Below, piece after piece: positions 16,536 to 28,883 of a stretch of DNA of 64,000 bases; within the stretch, counting starts at the first letter, position 1; each line of letters starts with the position of its first letter. The stretch lies in the NCBI RefSeq assembly GCF_000219725.1, contig NC_015732.1, positions 2,232,001 to 2,296,000 on the forward strand, read 5' to 3'. Under the pieces are notes generated by a model, which saw only the letters and a program-made list of their open reading frames with translations, was not told where the DNA came from and did no database searches. This DNA comes from Gracilinema caldarium DSM 7334 (GTDB taxonomy: Bacteria; Spirochaetota; Spirochaetia; Treponematales; Breznakiellaceae). The translations under genes were made by a program, and so were the position numbers.

Positions 16536-18632
16536 TTATTTATCACAGGCAGTCTCATCGCCGGTAATAAAACAGCCAATATAACTATCCATCGTGGCAA
16601 GGTTCTCGATAGTTTGCTTACTGGAATTAAGTACTACATGGGTTGTTTCTTCTATTTCTTTTGTTTCCAGTACCACCTGAGCCATTAAGGTTCTGATTTC
16701 AAAGGCTGATTCATGGAGATGCCCAATCTCATCACGGATAACAATCATGCCGGTAGACATTTCACCTGAAGAACCATACACCTGACTTGTAATGTCTTTC
16801 ATTGCACCAAGGGCATCCAGAATCTGGCTTGAACCCTGCTTTTGTTCCTCCATGGCCTGTTGAATCTGCATCACCAGACTACCTGTTGCATCAATATGTC
16901 CGACCAAAGTATTATAGGCTTGGACCGATTGGGCTGAAGACTCAACAACCTCTTCTATAATGGATCCCATTTTTGCCAGGTTTGCACCAATCGTTTTAGA
17001 TTGTTCACTGGCGGTTTCTGCAAGCCGTCTGATTTCTTCTGCTACCACGGCAAACCCTTTACCGGCATCTCCCGCATGGGCGGCTTCTATGGCTGCATTC
17101 ATTGCAAGTAAATTTGTCTGACTTGCAATAGCTGCTATAGCCTCGTTGGCTTCTATCAGCGCTTTCGATTGATCAGATACTTCAGCAATATGTTCAGCAA
17201 CTTCACGCTGAGTTTCTGAACCATGTTCAGTTGCCCGGTGAATGTCGATAAACTGCTGGGCCATCTTTTCGACAGTACCGGTAACAGAAGCAATGTTTCC
17301 GATCATTTCTTCTACCGCAGCCGAAGCCTGTTCTATGCTTTGAGTTTGGTGTTTAATAAGGCCATTTAGACTTTCGATGTTTTTTGTGATTTCCGTTGCG
17401 GCACTCATGGCTTCATCGGTACTGTTAACCTGTTCAATACACTTATTCTGTACGGTCTCTACTGTTTTATTAATATGTTCGGCGACCTGCGCAGTTTCTT
17501 TGCTTTCCTGTTCAAGAGCCATTCCAACCTTTGAAAGATTTTGTTGAGTCTGCTTTAACCCCCGTACAAGAGCCTGCATATTTTCGAGGAAAGCATTGAC
17601 GTGATGCACCAGATCAGCAATCTCATCAGAACCATGAACCGTAAATCGTTGTGTTAAGTCTGCGTTGCCTTGGGCGAGATCCTTAAAGGCTACAACTGTC
17701 TTCTTTATATGTTTTGTAATTGAACGGGCAATTAGAATAGAAAGCATAATGGTAAACAAAAATGATACAACCGATAATACAACACTAAACATCAATGTTT
17801 TATTCACGATATCATTAATTTCTACCACAGGAACCGATATAATGAGTTTCCATTTTGATATAGGGTCGACCTCAGTGTAAAAACAGAGATACGATTTCTT
17901 AAAATTATCTGTATAGGTTCCAGAGCCACTTTGGTTGTTAAGTAGAGAGACACTGAGCTGGGATAAGCCCTTAAACCCCCTGCTATCGGCATCATTAATA
18001 TTCAGATCCATCACCAGACTTTCATTCGGATGGGCTAGTATCATCCCCTCTGAGTCCACGAGCCATCCATAACCACTTTTATGAACCTTTAGCTGTTCAG
18101 CAATAACAGAAAGGGTCGAAAGCTTTATCTGGAAACCGAGCATTCCCGTAAGTCGACCATTCGAGTCCTTAATGGCTTGCACCATCACGACTATCGGGAT
18201 CCCCCAATTTTGGTTGATTTCTGCCTTACCAATGACAAAATCTTCACCGGACTTTATCCGTTGAACAAAGTCACTATTACGAGAAGGATACCGAGCCCGT
18301 AAATCGTTGACCGTCAGTCCTTCATTGTTGGTATAAAATATGCCTAAAATTTCCGAAGAAACCCTTTTTTTATAATATTGTAATTTCTCAACCGCATTCT
18401 CATCATTAATTGTTTCGCTTGCAAGTAATTTTAGCTGAACCTGAAGTTTTTCCAGCAATTTCTGCAGGGTATCTGCTTTTGACTGAACCAATTGCAGCGT
18501 ATCATCCCTGTTTAATTTTTGAATATCCGATCCGGTTCTCAGGCTAATTCCAAGGGTTAATAGGCTTACATTGATGATAGAGAGAAGACCAAAACTCAAC
18601 ACCATAATAGTCATTAAAGAACGTTTCATCAC
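16536..18632 (-). CDS. Methyl-accepting chemotaxis protein with Cache sensor
   Basis: 698 residues. Helix 1 (about 8-30) and helix 2 (about 280-304) enclose a double-Cache ligand-binding domain that includes the typical [15 protein letters not shown] segment. A HAMP domain (about 302-355) and a long signalling coiled coil follow. The conserved CheA/CheW-contact tip is present ([20 protein letters not shown]). It ends with no CheR-binding pentapeptide. Convergent with the response regulator (11-base gap) and preceded by GGATAGGTG. Cache receptors sense amino acids, organic acids or sugars; no ligand can be assigned. Confidence 0.93.
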
Positions 18633-18660
18633 CTATCCTTCCCGCCTTGCAAACCATCTT

Positions 18661-18701
18661 AAAAAAAAGGGATGATCGAAAGCCTGCAGCCTGACCATCC
18701 C
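18661..18701 (-). terminator. Rho-independent terminator of the sugar ABC operon
   Basis: Read on the minus strand: GGGATG (18701-18696) pairs with CATCCC (18674-18669), an inner AGCCTGCAGGCT-like element strengthens the fold, and eight T follow directly. It lies 83 bases after the permease stop and before the chemoreceptor gene, so it separates the two transcription units. Confidence 0.85.
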
Positions 18702-18783
18702 GTTTGATATAACTCTAACCGCCTAAGTGCCTCATTTACACTGTGGGCCTTCTAAACCTATTAAGGCGTCTGTGTATTATTGG

Positions 18784-19968
18784 TTATACTTTCCTCTTCC
18801 GGGAAGTTACATCAAAAATAACTGCGCCAACCAGGACAAGACCGCGAATAATGTATTGCAAAGATATATCGGTACCCATCAGGTTCATCCCGTTCATCAG
18901 GGACATATACACCAGGGCACCAATAAGGGATCCCGTAATAGAACCGATACCACCAGAGGCTGAAACACCGCCAATATAACAAGCGGCTATAGCGTCCAGC
19001 TCAAAGAGGGTACCTGCCTGGGGAGTGGCGGATTTAAGCCGGGCGGTAAAGAGAATACCCGCAAGGGCTGAAAGTAACCCCATGGAGGCAAAAACAAAGA
19101 GGGTAATCTTCTTGACATTAATACCGGAAAGTTCCGCCGCTTCGGGGTTACCACCTACAGCGAAAATATGGCGGCCGAGAACGGTTTTCCTTGCCAAAAA
19201 GTCATAGACAAAAACCACAACCATCATGATGACAAAGGTCCAGGATAGACCGTTAAAACCAGCCAGGATCCAGGTAATATAGGCTATAACCAGGGATAAT
19301 AAAAGGAGTTTCAGGATAAACATAGGCATTGAGAGCACATCAAAATGATATTCCTGCTTCCGTTTCCGATCTAAAATCTGACTAACGACCATAAACAGTA
19401 TGGCTAAAAGGCCTATGAATAGTGTTGTTTTATGGAGCCCGGGTAAAAAATTATCAAAGGGAAACAGCTCAGGGATATAGCCGTTTCCAAGTGCATTAAA
19501 GTCTTCGTTGGGAATTATAATAGTACCTGTAGCAGCAGTGGTTAGCATGAGGGCACCGCGGTAAATAAGCCAACCAGCAAGAGAAGAAACAAAAGCAGGT
19601 ATCCCTAGGGTTGCCACAGGGAAACCGATCACAAAACCAGCAGCAGCACCAAGGACCAGCACCAGCAGAATAGATAACCAGGTATTCAGATGTACCTGGG
19701 TCATGAGCACTGCAGCGACGGCTCCAATAAAACCAGCCAAGAAGCCCACCGAAAGATCAATATGCCGAATAACAATAATCAAGGTCATTCCAACTGCCAG
19801 AACAGCGATATAACCGGTCTGGTTAAGCAGGTTGGCGATATTTCGCGATGAGAGGAAATTACCATTAGTTAATATACTGAAAATGATCATAATAGCTACG
19901 AGTGCTATATACATTGCATATTCCCGCAGATTTCTGCGGAGCATGGTTCTAATTTCTTTATATGCCAT
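18784..19968 (-). CDS. gguB: Sugar ABC transporter permease (GguB/MmsB/XylH type)
   Basis: 394 residues with about ten membrane helices. It has the BPD_transp_2 family features: the N-terminal stretch SILTNGNFLSSRNIANLLNQ, the motif IDLSVGFLAG, a long central loop (about 170-210) characteristic of XylH/GguB as opposed to RbsC, and GGNPEAAELSGINV near residue 275. It forms the inner-membrane channel for pentose or other monosaccharide import with the ATPase at 19978 and the binding protein at 21665. Last gene of the operon, followed by a strong terminator. Confidence 0.92.
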   Translation of the reverse strand: MAYKEIRTMLRRNLREYAMYIALVAIMIIFSILTNGNFLSSRNIANLLNQTGYIAVLAVGMTLIIVIRHIDLSVGFLAGFIGAVAAVLMTQVHLNTWLSILLVLVLGAAAGFVIGFPVATLGIPAFVSSLAGWLIYRGALMLTTAATGTIIIPNEDFNALGNGYIPELFPFDNFLPGLHKTTLFIGLLAILFMVVSQILDRKRKQEYHFDVLSMPMFILKLLLLSLVIAYITWILAGFNGLSWTFVIMMVVVFVYDFLARKTVLGRHIFAVGGNPEAAELSGINVKKITLFVFASMGLLSALAGILFTARLKSATPQAGTLFELDAIAACYIGGVSASGGIGSITGSLIGALVYMSLMNGMNLMGTDISLQYIIRGLVLVGAVIFDVTSRKRKV

Positions 19969-19977
19969 TTTATCCTC

Positions 19978-21504
19978 CTAATACTGAGTAGCAAGTTCCA
20001 TTACCCGTTCCTGGGTAGCTTCACTGATTGGCAATTCGCCTCTTATTTGTCCGTTCGCCACTACATAGACTCTATCACTCATCCCGAGAACCTCCGGTAG
20101 TTCAGATGAAATCATCAGGATACTCATACCTCTGGCGACTAATTCATTCATCAGGGTATAGATTTCATATTTTGCACCCACATCAATACCCCGGGTAGGT
20201 TCATCCAGAATCAGTAGATCCGGTTTTGCAAAAAGCCATTTGGCTATTGATACTTTCTGCTGGTTTCCACCGGAAAGATTCACCACCAGCTGCTGAATAC
20301 TCGGTGTTTTGATGGTGATATCCTTTACATATTCAGACGCCACCTGGATTTCTTTTTCATCAATGATTACACCCTGTTTTGTTGCAACTTCTTCCAGGTT
20401 TGCCATGGTAATATTGGTCCGAATCGGCTGAATAAGTACCAGGCCGTTTCGTTTGCGGTCCTCAGAAGCATAGGCCAGGCCCGCAGCGATTGCCTCAGAG
20501 GGATGGTTAAAACGCTGTGATTTGCCTTTAAAAATAAGTTCACCGGTAATTTCATAGCCATCAGGATTTCCGAAGAGGCTTCGGGCTAATTCGGTTCGGC
20601 CTGAGCCCATGAGGCCTGCAAGGCCAACAATTTCGCCACGGCGAATCTTAAAGTTGACATTTTTAAGAACATGGCGCCCTAATTTTGGATCAAAGGCAGT
20701 CCAGTCTTTTACTTCCAGTACTAAATCATCCCAAATGCGGGAATTCCGTTTGGGATATATATTTTCTATGGATCGGCCAACCATGTGCTTAATAAGCACC
20801 TGTTCGTTCACCTTATCCTTTTCACGATCCATCGTGCAGATGGTTTTACCATCCCGCAGGACCGTAATGGTATCTGCAATACTGAGAACTTCCTTTAATT
20901 TATGGGAAATCATAATACAGGTTACACCCTGACTCTTGAGTTCCCGTATGATATTCAATAGGTTTTCGCAGTCATCTTCATTAAGTGCTGCAGTAGGTTC
21001 ATCGAGAATGAGTAGTTTTACATTTTTACTGAGGGCTTTCGCAATCTCAACCAATTGCTGTTTTCCGATACCCAAATCTTTTATCTTGGTAGTAGGGTTT
21101 ACTTTTAAGTGAACCCGTTCCAAAAGATGTTCTGTTTCTTTGATCATCTCATGGACATCTATCGAAATCCCTCTGCGGATTTCATGTCCTAAGAGTACAT
21201 TTTCATAGACCATCATCTCGGGAACTAAAGCCAGTTCCTGATAAATGATGCCTATTCCAGCGCTTTCACTGTCATGAATGCCATTAAATTTTACTTCTTT
21301 GCCATCAAAAAGAATCTTCCCTTCAAACTCATGGTGCGGATATACTCCGCTTAATATTTTCATCAAGGTTGATTTGCCAGCTCCATTCTCACCAACCAGA
21401 CAGTGGATTTCACCTTTCTTAACCGAAAAGGTAACATCACTTAAAGCCCGAACACCCGGGAATGTCTTGGTGATATGCTGCATTTCCAATATGGATTCGC
21501 TCAT
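19978..21504 (-). CDS. gguA: Sugar ABC transporter ATPase, duplicated domain (GguA/MmsA type)
   Basis: 508 residues with two ATPase domains. The first has Walker A GENGAGKST (38-46), signature LGIGKQQLVEIA and Walker B LLILDEPTAAL. The second has a degenerate P-loop (GLMGSGRTEL), signature LSGGNQQKV and Walker B LLILDEPTRGIDVG, as usual for the ribose/xylose/galactose importers. It is 9 bases from the permease gene. A 160-base gap packed with hairpins separates it from the binding-protein gene, consistent with lower expression than the binding protein. Confidence 0.94.
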   Translation of the reverse strand: MSESILEMQHITKTFPGVRALSDVTFSVKKGEIHCLVGENGAGKSTLMKILSGVYPHHEFEGKILFDGKEVKFNGIHDSESAGIGIIYQELALVPEMMVYENVLLGHEIRRGISIDVHEMIKETEHLLERVHLKVNPTTKIKDLGIGKQQLVEIAKALSKNVKLLILDEPTAALNEDDCENLLNIIRELKSQGVTCIMISHKLKEVLSIADTITVLRDGKTICTMDREKDKVNEQVLIKHMVGRSIENIYPKRNSRIWDDLVLEVKDWTAFDPKLGRHVLKNVNFKIRRGEIVGLAGLMGSGRTELARSLFGNPDGYEITGELIFKGKSQRFNHPSEAIAAGLAYASEDRKRNGLVLIQPIRTNITMANLEEVATKQGVIIDEKEIQVASEYVKDITIKTPSIQQLVVNLSGGNQQKVSIAKWLFAKPDLLILDEPTRGIDVGAKYEIYTLMNELVARGMSILMISSELPEVLGMSDRVYVVANGQIRGELPISEATQERVMELATQY

Positions 21505-21546
21505 TGCAGTACCTGCTTACAAAAAATTAAAGGACTGATAAATGGA

Positions 21547-21574
21547 TTGTCCGGAACCCAAGGGATCCGGACAA
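21547..21574 (-). terminator. Intercistronic stem-loop before the ATPase gene
   Basis: A perfect 9-base inverted repeat, TTGTCCGGA (21547-21555) and TCCGGACAA (21566-21574), with a 10-base loop. No T run follows on the minus strand, so it is more likely a transcript-stabilising or partial attenuating hairpin than a full terminator. Confidence 0.65.
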
Positions 21575-21603
21575 CCACATTCCCAGACATTTTTCAGCCT
21601 AAG

Positions 21604-21649
21604 GGGCTGTACATTTCTTGGACTGTACAGCCCATAGCTTGTACAGTCC
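21604..21649 (-). promoter_or_regulatory. Two mutually exclusive hairpins between binding-protein and ATPase genes
   Basis: On the minus-strand transcript, GGACTGTACA (21649-21640) can pair with TGTACAGTCC (21629-21620). GGGCTGTACA (21633-21624) can pair with TGTACAGCCC (21613-21604). Both stems are perfect 10-base pairs and share bases 21624-21629, so they cannot form together. This is the geometry of an attenuator or switch, lying just after the binding-protein stop codon. Confidence 0.6.
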
Positions 21650-21664
21650 TGCGAGCATTTTTAG

Positions 21665-22777
21665 TTATTTATTAAGACCGGTGAACTTGTCAGCTGTCCA
21701 GTAACCGGAATCGATGATTTCTTTCTTTACATTTTCTTTGGTTACGGTCACGATAGCGGTGGGTTTTGCAGGAACATCCTTCTTACCATTGTTGTAGTAG
21801 GAGGTAACAGGAGGAGTCTGGCCCTTCATATAGGCTATCGCTGCATTGATAGCATCCTGAACCAGGGTGCGAACGTCTTTAAGAACGGTCATGGACTGCT
21901 TGCCATCGATAATGTACTGGATAGAAGCAATTTCAGCATCCTGTCCGGTGATATAGTACTTGGTAACAGCCTTGTCAGCAGCGAAAGCATCGGCGATTGC
22001 CCGGGCGGTACCATCATTGGGAGCACAAATATATACGGTGCCTTTGGCTTCAGGACCAACAGCGGTCAGGTTAGCTTCGGCTTTGCTCTTTGCATCGTTA
22101 AAATTCCAGTTGGTGGTAACCTGGCCGATAATCTGGGCCATTTCATCCCGGGTGAGCTTTGCCTTGTCTTTCAGAGCCACTGCCTTATCGGAGTTGCGGA
22201 CGATATAGGTACCATCGGCAATCTTGGGCTGGAGCTTGCTCCATGCGCCTTCGAAGAAGATAAAGGCATTGTTGTCGGAAGCAGCACCGGCATAGATATA
22301 CAGGTTATTATTTTTAGAGCCAGCGGGGACCTTGGAATTGAGATAGTCACCCCAAGCAGCACCAACCTGGAAGCTGTCAAAGGTTACATAGTAGTCTACA
22401 GCGGTGGTATCCCGGATGAGGCGGTCATAGGAAATGACCTTTACACCAGCCTTGGCAGCAGCTTCTGCAGCGGCAGCTGCAGCAGTACCATCATGGGGGC
22501 AAATAACAAGAACTTTAATTCCCTGGCTGATAAGGGCTTCTACGTTGGCCTTTTCCTTTGCGGAATCACCCTGGCTAAAAAGAACGTTTGCAGTAAAACC
22601 AGCAGCTTTCAGGGCATCCATGAACCGGGTCTGGTCCTGAATCCAGCGGGGCTCATCCTTGGTTGGGAGAACGATACCAACCTGGGTTTTTCCGGCTTCA
22701 CCTTGGCCGCTTGCGAAGACGCCGCCAATAACGGCTACAGAAAGCAGTGCAATGAACAAACCACGTACGAGTTTCAT
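21665..22777 (-). CDS. chvE: Periplasmic sugar-binding protein, ChvE type
   Basis: 370 residues with a signal peptide (MKLVRGLFIALLSVAVIGG, then VFASGQGEAG, a leader end typical of treponemal binding proteins). The mature part is a Peripla_BP_4 two-lobe fold with ChvE/XylF hallmarks: VGIVLPTKDEPRW, SQGIKVLVICPHDG, KVISYDRLIRD and ITGQDAE. It delivers monosaccharides to GguAB. A strong ribosome site (GGAGGAAG) lies 5 bases before the ATG, and a 22-base inverted repeat sits in the leader. It is the first gene of the importer operon but is preceded by the sensing genes on the same strand after a 245-base gap that probably holds its promoter. Confidence 0.93.
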   Translation of the reverse strand: MKLVRGLFIALLSVAVIGGVFASGQGEAGKTQVGIVLPTKDEPRWIQDQTRFMDALKAAGFTANVLFSQGDSAKEKANVEALISQGIKVLVICPHDGTAAAAAAEAAAKAGVKVISYDRLIRDTTAVDYYVTFDSFQVGAAWGDYLNSKVPAGSKNNNLYIYAGAASDNNAFIFFEGAWSKLQPKIADGTYIVRNSDKAVALKDKAKLTRDEMAQIIGQVTTNWNFNDAKSKAEANLTAVGPEAKGTVYICAPNDGTARAIADAFAADKAVTKYYITGQDAEIASIQYIIDGKQSMTVLKDVRTLVQDAINAAIAYMKGQTPPVTSYYNNGKKDVPAKPTAIVTVTKENVKKEIIDSGYWTADKFTGLNK

Positions 22778-22805
22778 TGCTTCCTCCTACATTGGGACTT
22801 TTTCT

Positions 22806-22827
22806 CTGCAGTTACTAGGAACTGCAG
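22806..22827 (-). promoter_or_regulatory. Palindrome in the leader of the binding-protein gene
   Basis: CTGCAGTT (22806-22813), six bases, then AACTGCAG (22820-22827): a perfect 8-base inverted repeat 29 bases upstream of the ATG. It could be the operator of the AraC-type regulator encoded upstream, or a 5' hairpin in the mRNA. The rest of the 22778-23022 gap is AT-rich; no clear -35/-10 pair was found. Confidence 0.45.
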
Positions 22828-23022
22828 TGGCAGGCAGATCTTACTACCCCTACCGAGCATTAGTGTCCCTCGATTTACTACATCCTGCAGCAAGAAAGAA
22901 TTTACATTATGCTAGTATTTTTTAAGTTTTTATAAGTTTCTTTAGTAATAGCACTTTTTTAACATTAAATCTGGTCAATAATGTCCTATTCGCATGCAAA
23001 CGAGGTGCTTCTTTATTATGGA

Positions 23023-24054
23023 TTAATGATTTGAGACATTTCTGAAAACATCTTCACGCTGATGGAAACCATCCTTTATAACTGTAGCCTCCAAGCTCTC
23101 TTTGGTAACCAGTATTGGTTCCAGTTTTACATAGGGAACTTCATACAATCCATCATTAATAGTTTCGGTGGCGGGAAGTTTTTCACCCTTTGCTAGCATT
23201 ACCGCCAGGGCAGCAGCTTTTAACGATAATTTTTCAATTGGTTTATAAATGGTTGCATACTGACTCTCTTCAGCAACCCGCTGACATGCTGAAAGTTCCG
23301 CATCCTGCCCCAATACCAGGGTTTTGCCCAGCATTCTGTTTTCAGAAAGCACTCCAATCACCGTTTCTGCCAGCATATCATTGCCACAAAGAACTACATC
23401 GATATTTTTCTCTTCCGAAAGGAGCATTTCAAACCGGGATTTTACCTCATCACTGATCCAGTCCGAAGGCCATATTTCCTTTACCAGTTGGATAGTTCCT
23501 GTGGCGATCTGGGGACCCAGAACTTCATGGTAACCTCGATTAATCATATAAGCATTATTGTCAGTGATTGCACCGTTTATAATAATATAGTTTCCCTTTG
23601 GTCTTGCCATAAGAGCGGTATGAGCCATGAGGTACCCAACCTGCACATTATCAAAGGAAATATAGAGATCCACATTCGCACGATTCACCAGACGGTCGTA
23701 ACTAATAACTGGTATACCTTTTCGCTCCACCATACGACAGACTTCTGTCAACTTATCCGCATGATTCGGAATAACAACCAGCACATCAATGCCTGAATCT
23801 ACAAGGTTCTTGATTTGGGCTATCTGGGTATCCGCATCCTGATTAGCAACCCGTAGTTTTACTGTCGCATCCAGATCTGTAGCAGCCCTGGTAAAGCTAT
23901 CCACATCCCGGCGCCAGCGTTCTACTACAAGAGAATCAAGGGATAATCCAATGATAGGTTTATAACCTTCACCGTTGGTATTAGTTCTGGTACATGAAAC
24001 AGACATGATGATAGCAACAAATACGACCACACTGGCAAAGAGTATTCTTTTCAT
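23023..24054 (-). CDS. Sugar-binding lipoprotein (XylF/ChvE family), sensor-operon copy
   Basis: 343 residues. A lipoprotein signal ends IIMSVSC with Cys 21 as lipidation site. The mature Peripla_BP_4 domain resembles the 21665 protein (VISYDRLVNRANVDLYISFDNVQVG, VLGQDAELSACQ) but is a distinct paralogue. The ATG lies in a 4-base ATGA overlap with the response-regulator stop, so it is translated with the sensing cluster and not with the importer. Likely roles are to present a sugar to the membrane sensor or to be a second receptor for the importer. Ligand inferred as an aldopentose or hexose only by family. Confidence 0.9.
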   Translation of the reverse strand: MKRILFASVVVFVAIIMSVSCTRTNTNGEGYKPIIGLSLDSLVVERWRRDVDSFTRAATDLDATVKLRVANQDADTQIAQIKNLVDSGIDVLVVIPNHADKLTEVCRMVERKGIPVISYDRLVNRANVDLYISFDNVQVGYLMAHTALMARPKGNYIIINGAITDNNAYMINRGYHEVLGPQIATGTIQLVKEIWPSDWISDEVKSRFEMLLSEEKNIDVVLCGNDMLAETVIGVLSENRMLGKTLVLGQDAELSACQRVAEESQYATIYKPIEKLSLKAAALAVMLAKGEKLPATETINDGLYEVPYVKLEPILVTKESLEATVIKDGFHQREDVFRNVSNH

Positions 24055-25610
24055 TTCGTCTCTACTCCTTCAGGATTTTGTTTTAGAAAATCCATATATT
24101 CAGTGGGAGTCATACCAATCCAATTTTTAAAAAGGCGGGTAAAATAGTTTGGATCCTGATACCCACAGGCGACACTCACTTCCCGTACCGAAACAGTACC
24201 CTGAGCAAGAAGCTCCTTTGCTTTTTTTAACCGGTATTCAATCAATGTTCGAGCAAAACCATTCCCTAATTCTTCAGAAAAAAGTCGGGACAAGCTGGCG
24301 GGAGCAATCCCCAGCATATCCGCTACCTGTTCGAGACTGATGGGCTCTGCAAAATGATTTTCCATGTATAATAAAGCCCGTTTTAAGGTGGGAGAAAAGC
24401 TTTTCTTTTCTCTGGCCTTATCAATAATTCTTCTGAGAGTATCTTGAGCTTTTTCAATAAACGCGGAAAGCAGCCCCCCATTCCAGCGTGTCAGGAACTC
24501 TTCGTAATTGAGTAATACCTTAGTTTCATGTTCAGCAATCGAAGCCTTTTCAGAGACTTGTACCACAATCATGGTAAGGATGCTGAGGAACCGATAGAGA
24601 CTATGGGTTTCACTGATACCCCTCGCAAGAATTCGGCTAAGAATTTCTTCATATAACCGTTGTACTTGTCCTAAGTTGGAATCCATAAGTGCAATCATAA
24701 GTTCCCGGTCAAGACTCAAGGGCCAGAGCAACTGCTCGTCTCCTTCTTTTATGTTACCTTGATGCACATAACGGGCCAAAGCGGATTTCCATGAAGGAGT
24801 TAAATTCTCTAAAGGAAAGATCTCACCGGGATACAGGGCAATATGGCCCAGATGTATTTCTAAAGCAAAGGCAGTTTCAAAACGGCCTATCCAATCCATA
24901 AGGAGATTGGCATCCTTATGCTTCAATGGTACTACAATGGGCAAATACTGGTTTTCCTCAAGGCTGCCCCCGATAGCCTCGGTTTTATACTGGATATACT
25001 CAGCAAGCCTTTTAAAAAGACTTTGTAATGGCTCATCCTCTGAGGACCGAATAAAGGCAATAAGAATCACAGCCCACTCAGTTTGCAGATTCAGGGCCTT
25101 TTTAATCAGAAACAATTCCCGTCCATACTCTAAGCCATGTTTTATTCGATAAAAAAAAGCATCTCTTATCAGGGGCGCTAATTGATGATCCTGTTCAGTT
25201 AATGTGAGCCTGAGCTTTTCCAGTTCTCTGCTCCGTTCTAGATACTGGGTAGCGGACTGCAGAGCTGTTTCCAGCCGCTCCCTGGATACGGGTTTTAAAA
25301 TATAATCACATACCCCCAAACTCAGGGCTTCCCGGGCAATATCAAAACGTTCATAGGCTGTGATGAGAATAAACGCCTTGGGATTTCCCTGACCTGCAAT
25401 GGTTTTAATCGCTTCCAGGCCGGAAATGCCTGGCATCTGTACATCCATGAGCAAAATGTCCGGAGATAATTCCCGGGCTTTTTCTATCGCATCACGCCCC
25501 GAAGAGGCACTGCCTACAACGGTAAAATCCTCAGAGAAATATCGTTTAAAAAGCAGGGTTAACCCTATAACAATCGGTTGTTCATCATCTACAATAAGAA
25601 CTCGTTTCAT
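24051..25610 (-). CDS. AraC-type response regulator (YesN family)
   Basis: 519 residues. Receiver domain 1-125 has acidic DD at 8-9, phospho-acceptor Asp 56 in LLMDVQMPG and Lys in ILKPVSRE. A middle region of about 270 residues with no recognised fold follows, then two AraC helix-turn-helix motifs in the last 100 residues (AEPISLEQVADMLGIAPASL and VREVSVACGYQDPNYFTRLF). Overlaps the kinase gene by 4 bases (ATGA) and the lipoprotein gene by 4 bases. Partner of the kinase at 25607; likely activates the importer promoter in the 22778-23022 gap. Confidence 0.93.
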   Translation of the reverse strand: MKRVLIVDDEQPIVIGLTLLFKRYFSEDFTVVGSASSGRDAIEKARELSPDILLMDVQMPGISGLEAIKTIAGQGNPKAFILITAYERFDIAREALSLGVCDYILKPVSRERLETALQSATQYLERSRELEKLRLTLTEQDHQLAPLIRDAFFYRIKHGLEYGRELFLIKKALNLQTEWAVILIAFIRSSEDEPLQSLFKRLAEYIQYKTEAIGGSLEENQYLPIVVPLKHKDANLLMDWIGRFETAFALEIHLGHIALYPGEIFPLENLTPSWKSALARYVHQGNIKEGDEQLLWPLSLDRELMIALMDSNLGQVQRLYEEILSRILARGISETHSLYRFLSILTMIVVQVSEKASIAEHETKVLLNYEEFLTRWNGGLLSAFIEKAQDTLRRIIDKAREKKSFSPTLKRALLYMENHFAEPISLEQVADMLGIAPASLSRLFSEELGNGFARTLIEYRLKKAKELLAQGTVSVREVSVACGYQDPNYFTRLFKNWIGMTPTEYMDFLKQNPEGVETK

Positions 25611-27082
25611 CCATGCAGCTCCATGGGAATATAGAGAATAACCTTACTCCCCTGCCCTTCCGTACTTTCTATCGAAACCCGGCCCCTGCCGGCTGTAGAA
25701 AGGGTGACTCGCCGAATAACGTTAAAGAGCCCGATACCGCTATGTTCTGCGGTATCATCCAACTTGGCGGCCTTCATGGCTTCTTCGATATCTTCTTTTT
25801 TCATTCCCTTGCCTGTATCCGCAACAGCGAGCAGTATTTGTCGTGTGTTTTCATCCAAACTTACCGAGATGGTTACCGTACCACCCTGTTCAAGGTCATG
25901 CAGTCCGTGGGTAATGGCATTTTCAATAAGAGGTTGTAATACGAGGGCAGGAGTCTCATAAGAGAGTGCCCGTTCATCAACCTGAATAGCAAATTGGTAG
26001 CGTTCGGCGAAACGAAGCTTCAGAAGCCAGATATATTTACTCACACAATCTAGTTCTTCCGAGATAGGGACGAAACGGTTTGTTGGCCTAAGAACATAGC
26101 GGATAAACTCAGCTAATTTTTCAAGAAATTCCGCAGTGGTCTCATCATGTTCGGCCAGGGCCAACTGCCAGCCTGCAGAAAGGGTATTATAGAGAAAATG
26201 GGGATTTATCTGGGTCTGGAGTGCCAGGAGTTCCGCATCTTTCAATTTATGCTGATAGTCGAGCATTTGCATTTTCTGTTCGAGCAGTAGTTTCTCCAGT
26301 TCAGCTTTTTTATTAAGTTCTTCAAAGGCATTCTGAATGCTTTTCTGCATACGTTTAAAAGCCTGATTTAACGTACCAATTTCATCATCCTCTTCGTAGG
26401 GGGGCAGATTATAGGAATAATCACCCCGTTCTACCGCCTTCACCGTCTCAGAAAGATGTTCCAGAGGTTCTGTAAGGATCGAAGAATACCGCATCATAAA
26501 GATAGAACTTACGAGAAATGCCAGAACAATGAGCAGTAGGTTGAGAAAAAGAACCAGATTGATATTAGTCCGGTATCCCATAAAGGATGTAAGGGCTTCG
26601 TCCAGATAGATGGTGTTCATTTTATCAAGCAAAAATTTAATAAGCCCTTCTATTTTTTTTGCTTCATCATACTGGCTCACATAACTACTGACATTGCGGC
26701 CCCGTTTTGCTTGCACTGCGTTTTCAGTGGAAGCCAGGTAATTGTCTAGAAGAACAGCCAGATTGCGTTCCAGTAAAAAGAGCTGATCATCCTTTATTTC
26801 CCGATTCAGTTTGCCCGCCAGAACCTGCAGATCGGAGGCAAACCTGATATAGTCTTTAAGGGATTCAGAATTTTTAGCTCGGAGGTATGCGGTAAGATTA
26901 TTCTGGGTTTCATCCAGATTCTTCCGGATATTCTTAAGAACCAGATTATTCTGTAAGAGAAGATCGAAACTTTTAGCAAGCTCCAGAGACGCAATTCCTG
27001 TATATATTGTAACAATTGAAAGAATAAAGAGTATAACCAGAGAGTTAAGCACAATCCTGTTCCGCAGGCGATGTCGCATCAT
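25607..27082 (-). CDS. Sensor histidine kinase, LytS/YesM family
   Basis: 491 residues. Helix 1 at about 10-33, a helical periplasmic domain (about 35-170), helix 2 at about 174-197, HAMP at about 198-250 and a coiled coil to 285. The His_kinase domain has His 295 in QTQINPHFLYNT, followed by an ATPase lobe with LIENAITHG and DTGKGM. In Clostridium beijerinckii a homologous LytS-type kinase senses xylose through a membrane-associated binding protein (XylFII). The same gene order here (binding protein, kinase, YesN regulator) supports an equivalent complex, which is inference. ATGA overlaps on both sides indicate fixed stoichiometry. Confidence 0.93.
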   Translation of the reverse strand: MMRHRLRNRIVLNSLVILFILSIVTIYTGIASLELAKSFDLLLQNNLVLKNIRKNLDETQNNLTAYLRAKNSESLKDYIRFASDLQVLAGKLNREIKDDQLFLLERNLAVLLDNYLASTENAVQAKRGRNVSSYVSQYDEAKKIEGLIKFLLDKMNTIYLDEALTSFMGYRTNINLVLFLNLLLIVLAFLVSSIFMMRYSSILTEPLEHLSETVKAVERGDYSYNLPPYEEDDEIGTLNQAFKRMQKSIQNAFEELNKKAELEKLLLEQKMQMLDYQHKLKDAELLALQTQINPHFLYNTLSAGWQLALAEHDETTAEFLEKLAEFIRYVLRPTNRFVPISEELDCVSKYIWLLKLRFAERYQFAIQVDERALSYETPALVLQPLIENAITHGLHDLEQGGTVTISVSLDENTRQILLAVADTGKGMKKEDIEEAMKAAKLDDTAEHSGIGLFNVIRRVTLSTAGRGRVSIESTEGQGSKVILYIPMELHG

Positions 27083-28095
27083 TTTGTTGCCTTTCCATAT
27101 TTTGTATACGTAGAAACCTTACTGATAGGTGCAAATTGAGAAGTTATGCCCTCTTGTGAAAGGGCGAGTACTGCGGTCTCTCCCATCTTAATGGCATCCC
27201 GTACGATGGTTGCCTGAATTATTCCCTTTTCAAGCAGCCGTGCCACATCCAGGTCCTCATCGGCACCAATGATCACAATTTTACCTACCAGGCCTCGGTC
27301 AATGATAACCTGGGCAGCACTAACTGTACTGCGGGCATTGGTGCAGATAAAACAGTTCAATTCAGGGTAGCGTTCAATCATGCTAGTACAGACCGCTTCC
27401 CCACCAAGTATATTCTCCTCTTCCCGTTCAGCGGTTACAATCTTCCCCATCTGTTTTCTGTTCAATTCAAAAATGGCCCCATTAAGGAAGGGTTCTTCTG
27501 AGATAATAAAGGAATTGGGATTCCCTGCAGGCAAAATAACACCGATTCGTGCATCTTTTCCGAGAAGACCCAGGGCAGTACTTACCGCTTCCGATCCCTG
27601 GATAAAGGAATCGCTTGTTACGAGGGCCGGGATTCCCTGTACTGGCTGGTCCATAGCAATAGGTACAAAAGGGACCAGTTTTTCCCTGGCCTTGTCAGTA
27701 AAGCCTTTTATATCGCTTCCCGGAGGAAAATACATAAGTATCCCATCGGGTTTTGAACGCAGGGCAATGTCAAATAAACGGTAGGCTTCAGCGGAAAGGA
27801 AGGATTGGCTGACCTCTACATCTGAGGAATAGGTTAACAGTTCCAATCCTGCTGACTCTTTGGTAGCTCCCTGTTGAATCCCATAATACAGGTTAATGAA
27901 AAAGGGATCTGAAATTGCTGGCAATATGGCTATAAGGTGCTTTTTTACTGTTTTGAGTGTCCCTGGATTCCTCAATACCGATCTACCTAGTACCTCCCGG
28001 CTTTTCCCGATAAGCATAATATTTAAGCCCGTCGTAATGGTGAGGGCGATACTAAAGATGATAAGTAACACGAGACTTAACCAGTTTTTCCGCAT
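27079..28095 (-). CDS. Membrane-anchored sugar-binding sensor protein (XylFII-like)
   Basis: 338 residues. The N-terminal hydrophobic helix (about 8-29) has no lipobox and no clear cleavage site, so it is probably an uncleaved anchor facing the periplasm. A Peripla_BP_4 fold follows (HLIAILPAISDPFFINLYYG, KPDGILMYFPPG, IGVILPAGNPNS, VIIGADEDLDVARLLEKG). It would report ligand to the kinase whose start codon overlaps its stop by 4 bases. No Shine-Dalgarno sequence precedes the ATG. It starts only 32 bases after the aat stop, so read-through from clpS-clpA-aat is possible as well as its own promoter. Confidence 0.88.
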   Translation of the reverse strand: MRKNWLSLVLLIIFSIALTITTGLNIMLIGKSREVLGRSVLRNPGTLKTVKKHLIAILPAISDPFFINLYYGIQQGATKESAGLELLTYSSDVEVSQSFLSAEAYRLFDIALRSKPDGILMYFPPGSDIKGFTDKAREKLVPFVPIAMDQPVQGIPALVTSDSFIQGSEAVSTALGLLGKDARIGVILPAGNPNSFIISEEPFLNGAIFELNRKQMGKIVTAEREEENILGGEAVCTSMIERYPELNCFICTNARSTVSAAQVIIDRGLVGKIVIIGADEDLDVARLLEKGIIQATIVRDAIKMGETAVLALSQEGITSQFAPISKVSTYTKYGKATK

Positions 28096-28101
28096 GTATT
28101 T

Positions 28102-28107
28102 ATTGTA
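28102..28107 (-). promoter_or_regulatory. -10 hexamer six bases before the sensor-protein ATG
   Basis: On the minus strand TACAAT is followed by AAATAC and then ATG 28095, the same spacing as at the kinase at 14034. No good -35 box is visible 16-18 bases further upstream, so the call rests on position and on the missing ribosome site. Confidence 0.35.
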
Positions 28108-28127
28108 CCATGAGGGACGCTGAAAGG

Positions 28128-28883
28128 CTATTGTATTTCTGTATAGCGGTCAGCCCAGGAACCGCGCCGGTCCGCCGTATCCCGGCCGAGTATCTCCCTC
28201 ACTGAAAGGGCCTTTTGTAAAAGTTGTAAGAAGGAGCTGCGGTCCAGTTCCTGACCGCCTAAACTCTGGAGATGCGGGGTGGGTACCTGGCAATCTATAA
28301 AGTCCAGTCCATCCTCGAATAGGTTTTTTGCAAGTGTTAAAAAGGCCGCTTTGGAGGCGTTCGGATACCGGGCAAACATGGATTCACCGCAGAATACGTT
28401 CCCGAGCCGTAACCCATAACAGCCGCCTACCAGCTCCCCTTCGAGATAGGCTTCCGCACTGTGAGCCCAGCCGAGATGGTGCAACCTTGTATAGGCTTCT
28501 ATAATATCATCGGTTATCCAGGTACCTCCCTGACCAGGCCTCGGAACAGAACCGCAACCGTGAATGACCTCTTCGAAATTGGTATCGAACCGGATGGTAA
28601 ACATTCCTTTTTTAAAGATTTTTCGCATCGATTCAGAGATATGGAGGGTCTCAGGATAAATCACAAAGCGGGGATCGGGAGATTGCCAGATGAGGGGGTC
28701 CTCCGGATTGTACCAGGGGAATATTCCCTGTTCATAGGCAGAGAGGAGCATCCCCGGTGAAAGGTTGCCCCCGACAGCCACAATCCAGTCGTCACAGTGT
28801 TCGGGATCGGGAAAGGTAAAGCGTTCTTCCTCGGTCAGATAGGGAAAATGCGGGTCCGGACCGGGCCCGCGCCAATACCCCAT
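28128..28883 (-). CDS. aat: Leucyl/phenylalanyl-tRNA--protein transferase
   Basis: 251 residues, usual length for Aat. Family segments are clear: the N-terminal FPDPEHCDDWIVAVGGNLSP, YEQGIFPWYN, WQSPDPRFV, the core HAEAYLEGELVGGCYGLRLG-like stretch near residues 140-160 and FCGESMFARYPNASK. The enzyme adds Leu or Phe from aminoacyl-tRNA to proteins with N-terminal Lys or Arg, creating N-degrons read by ClpS. It starts one base after the clpA stop, so it is the third gene of clpS-clpA-aat. Confidence 0.97.
   Translation of the reverse strand: MGYWRGPGPDPHFPYLTEEERFTFPDPEHCDDWIVAVGGNLSPGMLLSAYEQGIFPWYNPEDPLIWQSPDPRFVIYPETLHISESMRKIFKKGMFTIRFDTNFEEVIHGCGSVPRPGQGGTWITDDIIEAYTRLHHLGWAHSAEAYLEGELVGGCYGLRLGNVFCGESMFARYPNASKAAFLTLAKNLFEDGLDFIDCQVPTPHLQSLGGQELDRSSFLQLLQKALSVREILGRDTADRRGSWADRYTEIQ

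Follow-up and report, generated by a model that had tools for sequence, protein, structure and literature searches.

Which of two binding proteins recognises the sugar in a two-component sensor that carries both? This question is raised by four consecutive minus-strand genes of Gracilinema caldarium DSM 7334, located in a window of 64,000 nucleotides (C1:2232001-2296000; the genome is a single contig of 3,239,340 bases). They encode a membrane-anchored substrate-binding protein (SBP), here SBP1, a LytS/YesM-type histidine kinase, an AraC-type response regulator and a XylF-like lipoprotein, here sensor XylF (sXYLF). Based on gene order and its conservation, clade structure, pocket conservation, tethering signals and the homology of the kinase to LytS, all established at the level of sequence, we propose, with a probability of roughly 55%, a four-component sugar sensor in which the tethered XylF is the receptor and SBP1 an adaptor. 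An earlier note on this DNA had placed the four genes in this order at 28095-23023, each overlapping the next by 4 bases; both order and coordinates were borne out, as were the three overlaps (27079-27082, 25607-25610 and 24051-24054). Domain models assigned Peripla_BP_4 to SBP1 and to the lipoprotein, HAMP, His_kinase and HATPase_c to the kinase, and Response_reg with an AraC helix-turn-helix to the regulator.

27079..28095, minus strand: SBP1, membrane-anchored binding protein with XylFII-like fold and a sugar pocket that is not conserved (sequence and structure match)
27655..27657, minus strand: codon of SBP1 Ala147, aligned with XylFII Asp103 and RbsB Asp89 (alignment)
25607..27082, minus strand: LytS/YesM-type histidine kinase with two transmembrane helices, four-helix sensor domain, HAMP, His_kinase and HATPase (domain models)
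26696..26707, minus strand: KRGR motif, kinase residues 126-129, between sensor-domain helices 3 and 4 (alignment)
24051..25610, minus strand: response regulator with AraC-type DNA-binding domain (domain models)
23023..24054, minus strand: sXYLF, XylF-like lipoprotein with conserved sugar pocket (models and alignment)
23992..23994, minus strand: codon of the lipobox-like Cys21 of sXYLF (invariant in 19/19 of alignment A2)

ATGA coupling as a sign of function was considered and rejected. In ~162 kb of the same genome (the window and seven further stretches, with crude gene calls), 18/90 same-strand neighbour pairs overlap by 4 bases, so that three such overlaps in a row are unremarkable inside an operon. 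Among 83 distinct related loci with the SBP1-kinase-regulator-sXYLF order, 4-base overlaps were found at the three junctions in 44/83, 28/83 and 26/83, respectively; coupling is usual, and what is conserved is the gene order. The median gap is -4 between regulator and sXYLF and 180.5 between sXYLF and the importer SBP (<=20 in 1/62). A synteny survey, for which the earlier note had called, showed the order to be present in Spirochaetota, Clostridia and a subset of Bacilli, with three such modules in the same genome (the window, L068 and L069). It was recurrent in loci around XylF-like and SBP1-like matches from 58 related genomes, mostly followed by a ChvE-like importer, and was shared by most of the best 80 loci (Firmicutes and spirochaetes) when the sXYLF alignment was run against genome contigs. 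In surveys seeded with SBP1, sXYLF was the next gene in 10/13 triads of Bacillota (60 matches inspected, 199 genomes searched) and in 5/5 of Spirochaetota (20 matches inspected, 149 genomes searched), fractions that are biased upward because the seed, A3, comprised only SBP1 from loci found through XylF. A set from Bacilli seeded with kinases (profile A4; 29 kinases, 4 of them XylFII-type) had sXYLF in 7/38 triads.

Also identified were variants of this organization. Within the same genome, an anchored protein of 632 residues, part of which is XylF-like (L072:7363-9261, C1 about 2487362), follows a kinase and regulator with a 4-base overlap, and may be an extended form of the fourth component; another locus (L070, C1:2414000-2428000) has the reversed order regulator-kinase-SBP-importer with an SBP1-like protein, similar to Bacillota loci L200, L207 and L208. 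Nine triads in Bacilli (L309, L310, L312, L315, L322, L324, L328, L331 and L334) are followed by three frames of ~430, 320 and 273 residues instead of XylFGH, which we take to be the size pattern of a CUT1-type importer. A module on a contig labelled Holophagaceae (Acidobacteriota; L119) is nested among spirochaetes on both trees, corresponding to a mis-binned contig or a transfer.

The best PDB sequence match of the lipoprotein was XylF (4YWH, E 4.5e-78), and it scored 286 bits against the XylF equivalog TIGR02634, below the curated cut-off of 389.55. In a quick tree under a simple model, 90/92 sensor-linked XylF sequences formed one clade with a Shimodaira-Hasegawa-like approximate likelihood ratio (SH-aLRT) support of 100, and all 27 importer XylF fell outside it; the two remaining sensor-linked sequences, from L216 and L245, lie outside the main clade and have a separate origin. 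Mirror-tree comparison of 43 loci, thinned from 52, gave correlations of sXYLF with kinase, SBP1 and regulator of 0.90, 0.81 and 0.76, against 0.59 with the importer SBP and 0.60 with the importer ATPase, which themselves correlate at 0.90. The excess of sXYLF-kinase-sensor-domain over sXYLF-ATPase correlation was absent in 27/1000 subsamples. Only three sensor-specific sXYLF residues, all weak, were detected (columns of window H98, E238 and R240). Clade, co-divergence with kinase and SBP1, and gene order thus agree with the earlier view that the sensor includes a second, lipidated binding protein, and, judged by these comparisons, sXYLF is a conserved part of it.

The lipobox-like Cys21 is invariant across alignment A2, which leaves out L086, L091, L104 and L106, and a simple pattern test found a lipobox in sXYLF of 40/40 spirochaete loci. 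The same test on 43 non-spirochaete loci returned 22 lipoproteins, 20 sequences without Cys and one without a segment (L216), whose sXYLF shows a Cys when the segment is inspected by eye. Nineteen of the 20 Cys-less relatives possess, by eye on the segments, an N-terminal transmembrane anchor; the other, L135, is a mis-hit. In these 19 relatives a transmembrane anchor takes the place of the lipobox, so the lipid seems to serve for attachment to the cytoplasmic membrane. Such a tether is the common denominator of sXYLF, and the idea that the module senses one sugar in two compartments finds no support.

Closer examination of the two pockets revealed different patterns of conservation. In sXYLF, R46, D120, R121, D165, N167, W199, N225, D251 and K271 occupy columns that we take to form the pocket, as in Escherichia coli XylF; these nine columns are near-invariant, at variability percentiles 0-11, and those of the importer SBP from the same loci stand at 0-9. 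The N-terminal helix of SBP1 is uncleaved and lacks a Cys, and the best PDB sequence match of the protein is XylFII (5XSD, E 9e-18). Its predicted structure (predicted local distance difference test score, pLDDT, 86.6) matches several sugar-binding proteins about equally, including AraP (6SW4; Z 28.1), GanP (28.1) and XylFII (5xsj_X; 27.6, 22% identity). Five of its pocket columns are variable (A147, percentile 79; M148, 69; F203, 71; E227, 97; R299, 64), and five less so (F65, 4; D279, 10; F66, 22; N253, 23; D63, 37). The window SBP1 has A147, F203, D279 and R299 at the positions of RbsB D89, R141, D215 and Q235, and thus departs from the intact pocket of XylFII-LytS-YesN; A147 aligns with Asp in 5XSJ and 5XSS and with Ala in 5XSD, an entry titled D103A mutant. 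All four canonical residues were present in 39/49 systems without sXYLF and in 0/90 with it, and the D89 equivalent in 43/49 and 4/90, respectively (these counts leave out L104, with sXYLF ~1 kb beyond the importer, L126, with a broken regulator frame, L071, outside the family, and L339, unresolved). This pattern suggests that sXYLF binds the sugar and that SBP1 has turned adaptor.

The kinase sensor domain is predicted to be a four-helix bundle (pLDDT 91.1). A profile built from kinases with sensor XylF only, excluding XylFII-type kinases, matches LytS of the XylFII complex (E 8.9e-5), and by fold LytS (5xsj_L, Z 15.5) ranks among other four-helix sensor domains (best Z 16.1); from the profile match, the domain is regarded as homologous to LytS. 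Its best conserved stretch, in an otherwise variable domain, is KRGR, present in 67/90 kinases with sXYLF and in 0/49 without, and absent from the 15 XylFII-type kinases examined. A candidate for the interface, this motif marks the clade no less.

Among known systems, XylFII-LytS-YesN of Clostridium beijerinckii (PDB 5XSJ/5XSS/5XSD) resembles the module in the fold of SBP1, the kinase sensor domain and the SBP-kinase-regulator order upstream of an importer; both combine, in one operon, a XylFII-type SBP, a LytS/YesM kinase with the LytS sensor domain and an AraC-type regulator. Unlike the module in the window, it has one sensor SBP with an intact pocket, kinases of its type lack KRGR, and the regulator is followed by a gap and then the importer SBP (293-294 bases past the regulator in the near-identical XylFII loci L268 and L269), whereas sXYLF here overlaps the regulator. 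The earlier note's statement that this system has a single sensor-binding protein is supported by its locus, where no sXYLF follows the regulator. None was found after the regulator in 14 loci around XylFII relatives (Clostridiaceae; two 100% identical to XylFII), 13 of which have importer genes starting 75-432 bases past the regulator; the remaining one, L270, has a 335-residue frame between regulator and importer genes. In AraPST of Geobacillus stearothermophilus, the SBP, AraP, acts with a kinase and regulator to control a sugar importer, again with one sensing SBP. CuaDSR of Ruminiclostridium cellulolyticum is likewise described (PMC10384115, where the systems listed have one SBP for sensing and another for transport) as a lipoprotein SBP, kinase and regulator beside an importer with its own SBP; it differs in having one sensing SBP and in responding to cellobiose.

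A functional precedent with two SBPs, likened here by gene order and published description, is LevQRST (levTSRQ) of Streptococcus mutans, a four-component system with gene order T-S-R-Q. According to the published account (PMC3043104), LevQ, from the fourth gene, sets specificity and is essential, its loss abolishing activity; LevT, from the first, is less critical, mutations in it alter the sugar response, and its tethered N-terminal part exerts a negative signal. As in the window, two membrane-associated SBPs flank kinase and regulator in the order SBP-kinase-regulator-SBP; that both act in signalling is described for LevQRST. Unlike the module in the window, LevQRST controls a fructanase and a phosphotransferase system (PTS), has no ATP-binding cassette (ABC) importer nearby, and includes a kinase, LevS, with up to 5 predicted transmembrane domains, against 2 in the window kinase. 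No LevQRST homologue was recognisable in searches of Bacilli (20 XylF regions and 40 kinase regions inspected), none was identified when plasmid records were queried with the kinase and a single sXYLF, and among the matches listed for 206 Clostridiaceae genomes, inspected by eye, no XylF-like gene lay within 10 kb of a PTS EIID gene. LevQRST was the one published two-SBP case found, with no structure in the literature covered, which also included PMC9601137, PMC13068155, PMC6321045 and PMC3656788; a literature search covering few subscription papers found no published account of the SBP1-kinase-regulator-sXYLF module. Taken together, the module is real and conserved; it is a variant form of the SBP-assisted two-component system, for which LevQRST provides a functional precedent. 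What is new is the dedicated XylF subfamily, the breadth of that subfamily, a first SBP whose pocket has eroded, and the motif at the tip of the kinase.

In the proposed sensor, the tether would keep sXYLF close to the kinase at the cytoplasmic membrane. The protein would bind an aldose, which its pocket suggests to be xylose-like. Once loaded, it would engage the complex that the kinase forms with anchored SBP1, probably at the end of the four-helix domain farthest from the membrane. SBP1 would descend from a XylFII-like sugar sensor; with its own sugar pocket lost, it would act as an adaptor for the kinase dimer or as a clamp on it, and the kinase would phosphorylate the AraC-type regulator, which would switch on the importer operon (ChvE-like protein, ATPase and permease) from a promoter at 22778-23022. 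More tentatively, and short of an even chance, SBP1 may be a ligand-free pseudo-receptor and docking adaptor through which the tethered XylF signals, with the KRGR tip marking the new interface. The relay of binding proteins envisaged in the earlier note is compatible with these data; a comparison of two different ligands, its other suggestion, appears less likely given the poorly conserved SBP1 pocket.

Several observations weigh against the proposal. The F65 and D279 columns of SBP1 are fairly conserved (percentiles 4 and 10) and the window SBP1 retains D279, and an altered pocket may have switched its ligand and not lost it. Three of the four canonical residues are retained in 7/90 systems with sXYLF (L216, L245, L311, L316, L319, L327 and L341, of which the XylF tree placed L216 and L245 only), the lost residue being D89 in all seven. 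The presence of sXYLF amounts to two changes on the kinase tree; the association of sXYLF with pocket loss therefore lacks statistical weight, the pair test is without power, and independent contrasts of pocket loss against sXYLF presence were not significant (4-5 contrasts on the first tree, 2 on the larger). Mirror-tree analysis, tried and rejected as a means of locating the sXYLF contact within the kinase, does not favour its periplasmic domain (0.79 versus 0.86 for the catalytic part). LevT truncations, as described in PMC3043104, show that a first-gene protein can affect signalling strongly. Finally, the ligand, the protein contacts, the direction of the signal and the control of the promoter are elements that we infer.

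The likeliest alternative is that both binding proteins sense, SBP1 binding a different, lineage-specific ligand and the kinase integrating two signals. From one system to the next, the pocket residues of SBP1 differ as they would if specificity were shifting, the bilobal fold is kept in a confident prediction, and in the published account of LevQRST mutations of LevT alter the sugar response; however, half of the ten pocket columns in SBP1 show average conservation at best, including the Asp position that XylFII-type sensors keep, and we consider a second signal unlikely. The lipoprotein might instead be a second binding protein of the importer that merely happens to be located in the sensor operon, being XylF-like with an intact pocket and adjoining importer genes in 62/83 loci. 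Its co-divergence with the kinase and not with the importer, a clade that excludes importer XylF, its retention in modules without an adjacent importer (L253-L255, L262, L163 and L181) and its transmembrane-anchored relatives render this improbable. Least probable, and in our view a long shot, is a dampening role, in which sXYLF, unliganded or liganded, would keep the kinase inactive and activation would fall to SBP1: nothing in the sequence data fixes the sign of the sXYLF effect and the tethered part of LevT is described as giving a negative signal in S. mutans, yet the conserved pocket sits in sXYLF, and in LevQRST loss of the fourth-gene protein abolishes activity.

SBP-assisted kinases are usually described with one SBP per kinase, and the two-SBP family found here is widespread. 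With one pocket eroded and the other conserved, it becomes possible to test directly how a sensor built on a binding protein may turn into an adaptor. The family also cautions against taking the anchored SBP as a guide to the inducer in the many four-gene operons of this kind in clostridia and spirochaetes.

Downstream of the module lie the presumed promoter and target genes.

22778..23022, minus strand: intergenic region before the importer genes, presumed regulated promoter (conserved blocks)
21665..22777, minus strand: ChvE-like importer binding protein without lipobox (curated model and PDB sequence match)
19978..21504, minus strand: GguA-like ABC ATPase (curated model)
18784..19968, minus strand: GguB-like ABC permease (curated model)

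The importer proteins all miss the curated cut-offs of ChvE (257 bits versus 460), GguA (733.7 versus 810) and GguB (421.4 versus 450), which are still the closest curated families; the ChvE-like protein has a PDB sequence match to 4RXU (E 2e-153). That a third, apparently soluble binding protein stands with the importer, as previously noted, is upheld by its ChvE-like identity and the lack of a lipobox Cys, which is also lacking in 25/33 spirochaete importer SBPs. The intergenic region contains conserved AT-rich blocks and a direct repeat of TTAAAAAA; a promoter scan was uninformative, with 12 sites versus 20.1 expected by shuffling, and Rfam gave no match within 18500-28300. An inverted repeat, CTGCAGTT...AACTGCAG, is located at 22806-22827, immediately before the ribosome-binding site of the gene for the ChvE-like protein, its hairpin being kept or replaced in relatives.

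Ten neighbouring proteins were scanned for clues to the ligand, and nine were not pentose enzymes. The other is a xylulokinase (617 bits; L163:1081-2610), encoded on an uncultured Spirochaetaceae contig beside a four-gene module without an adjacent importer, a hint of xylose as inducer at that locus. In the window, a methyl-accepting chemotaxis protein with a dCache domain is encoded directly downstream of the permease (16536-18632). Such a gene also stands beside the module in two genus relatives (L076 and L077) and upstream of it in L115, which raises the possibility of a link between chemotaxis and this sugar system.

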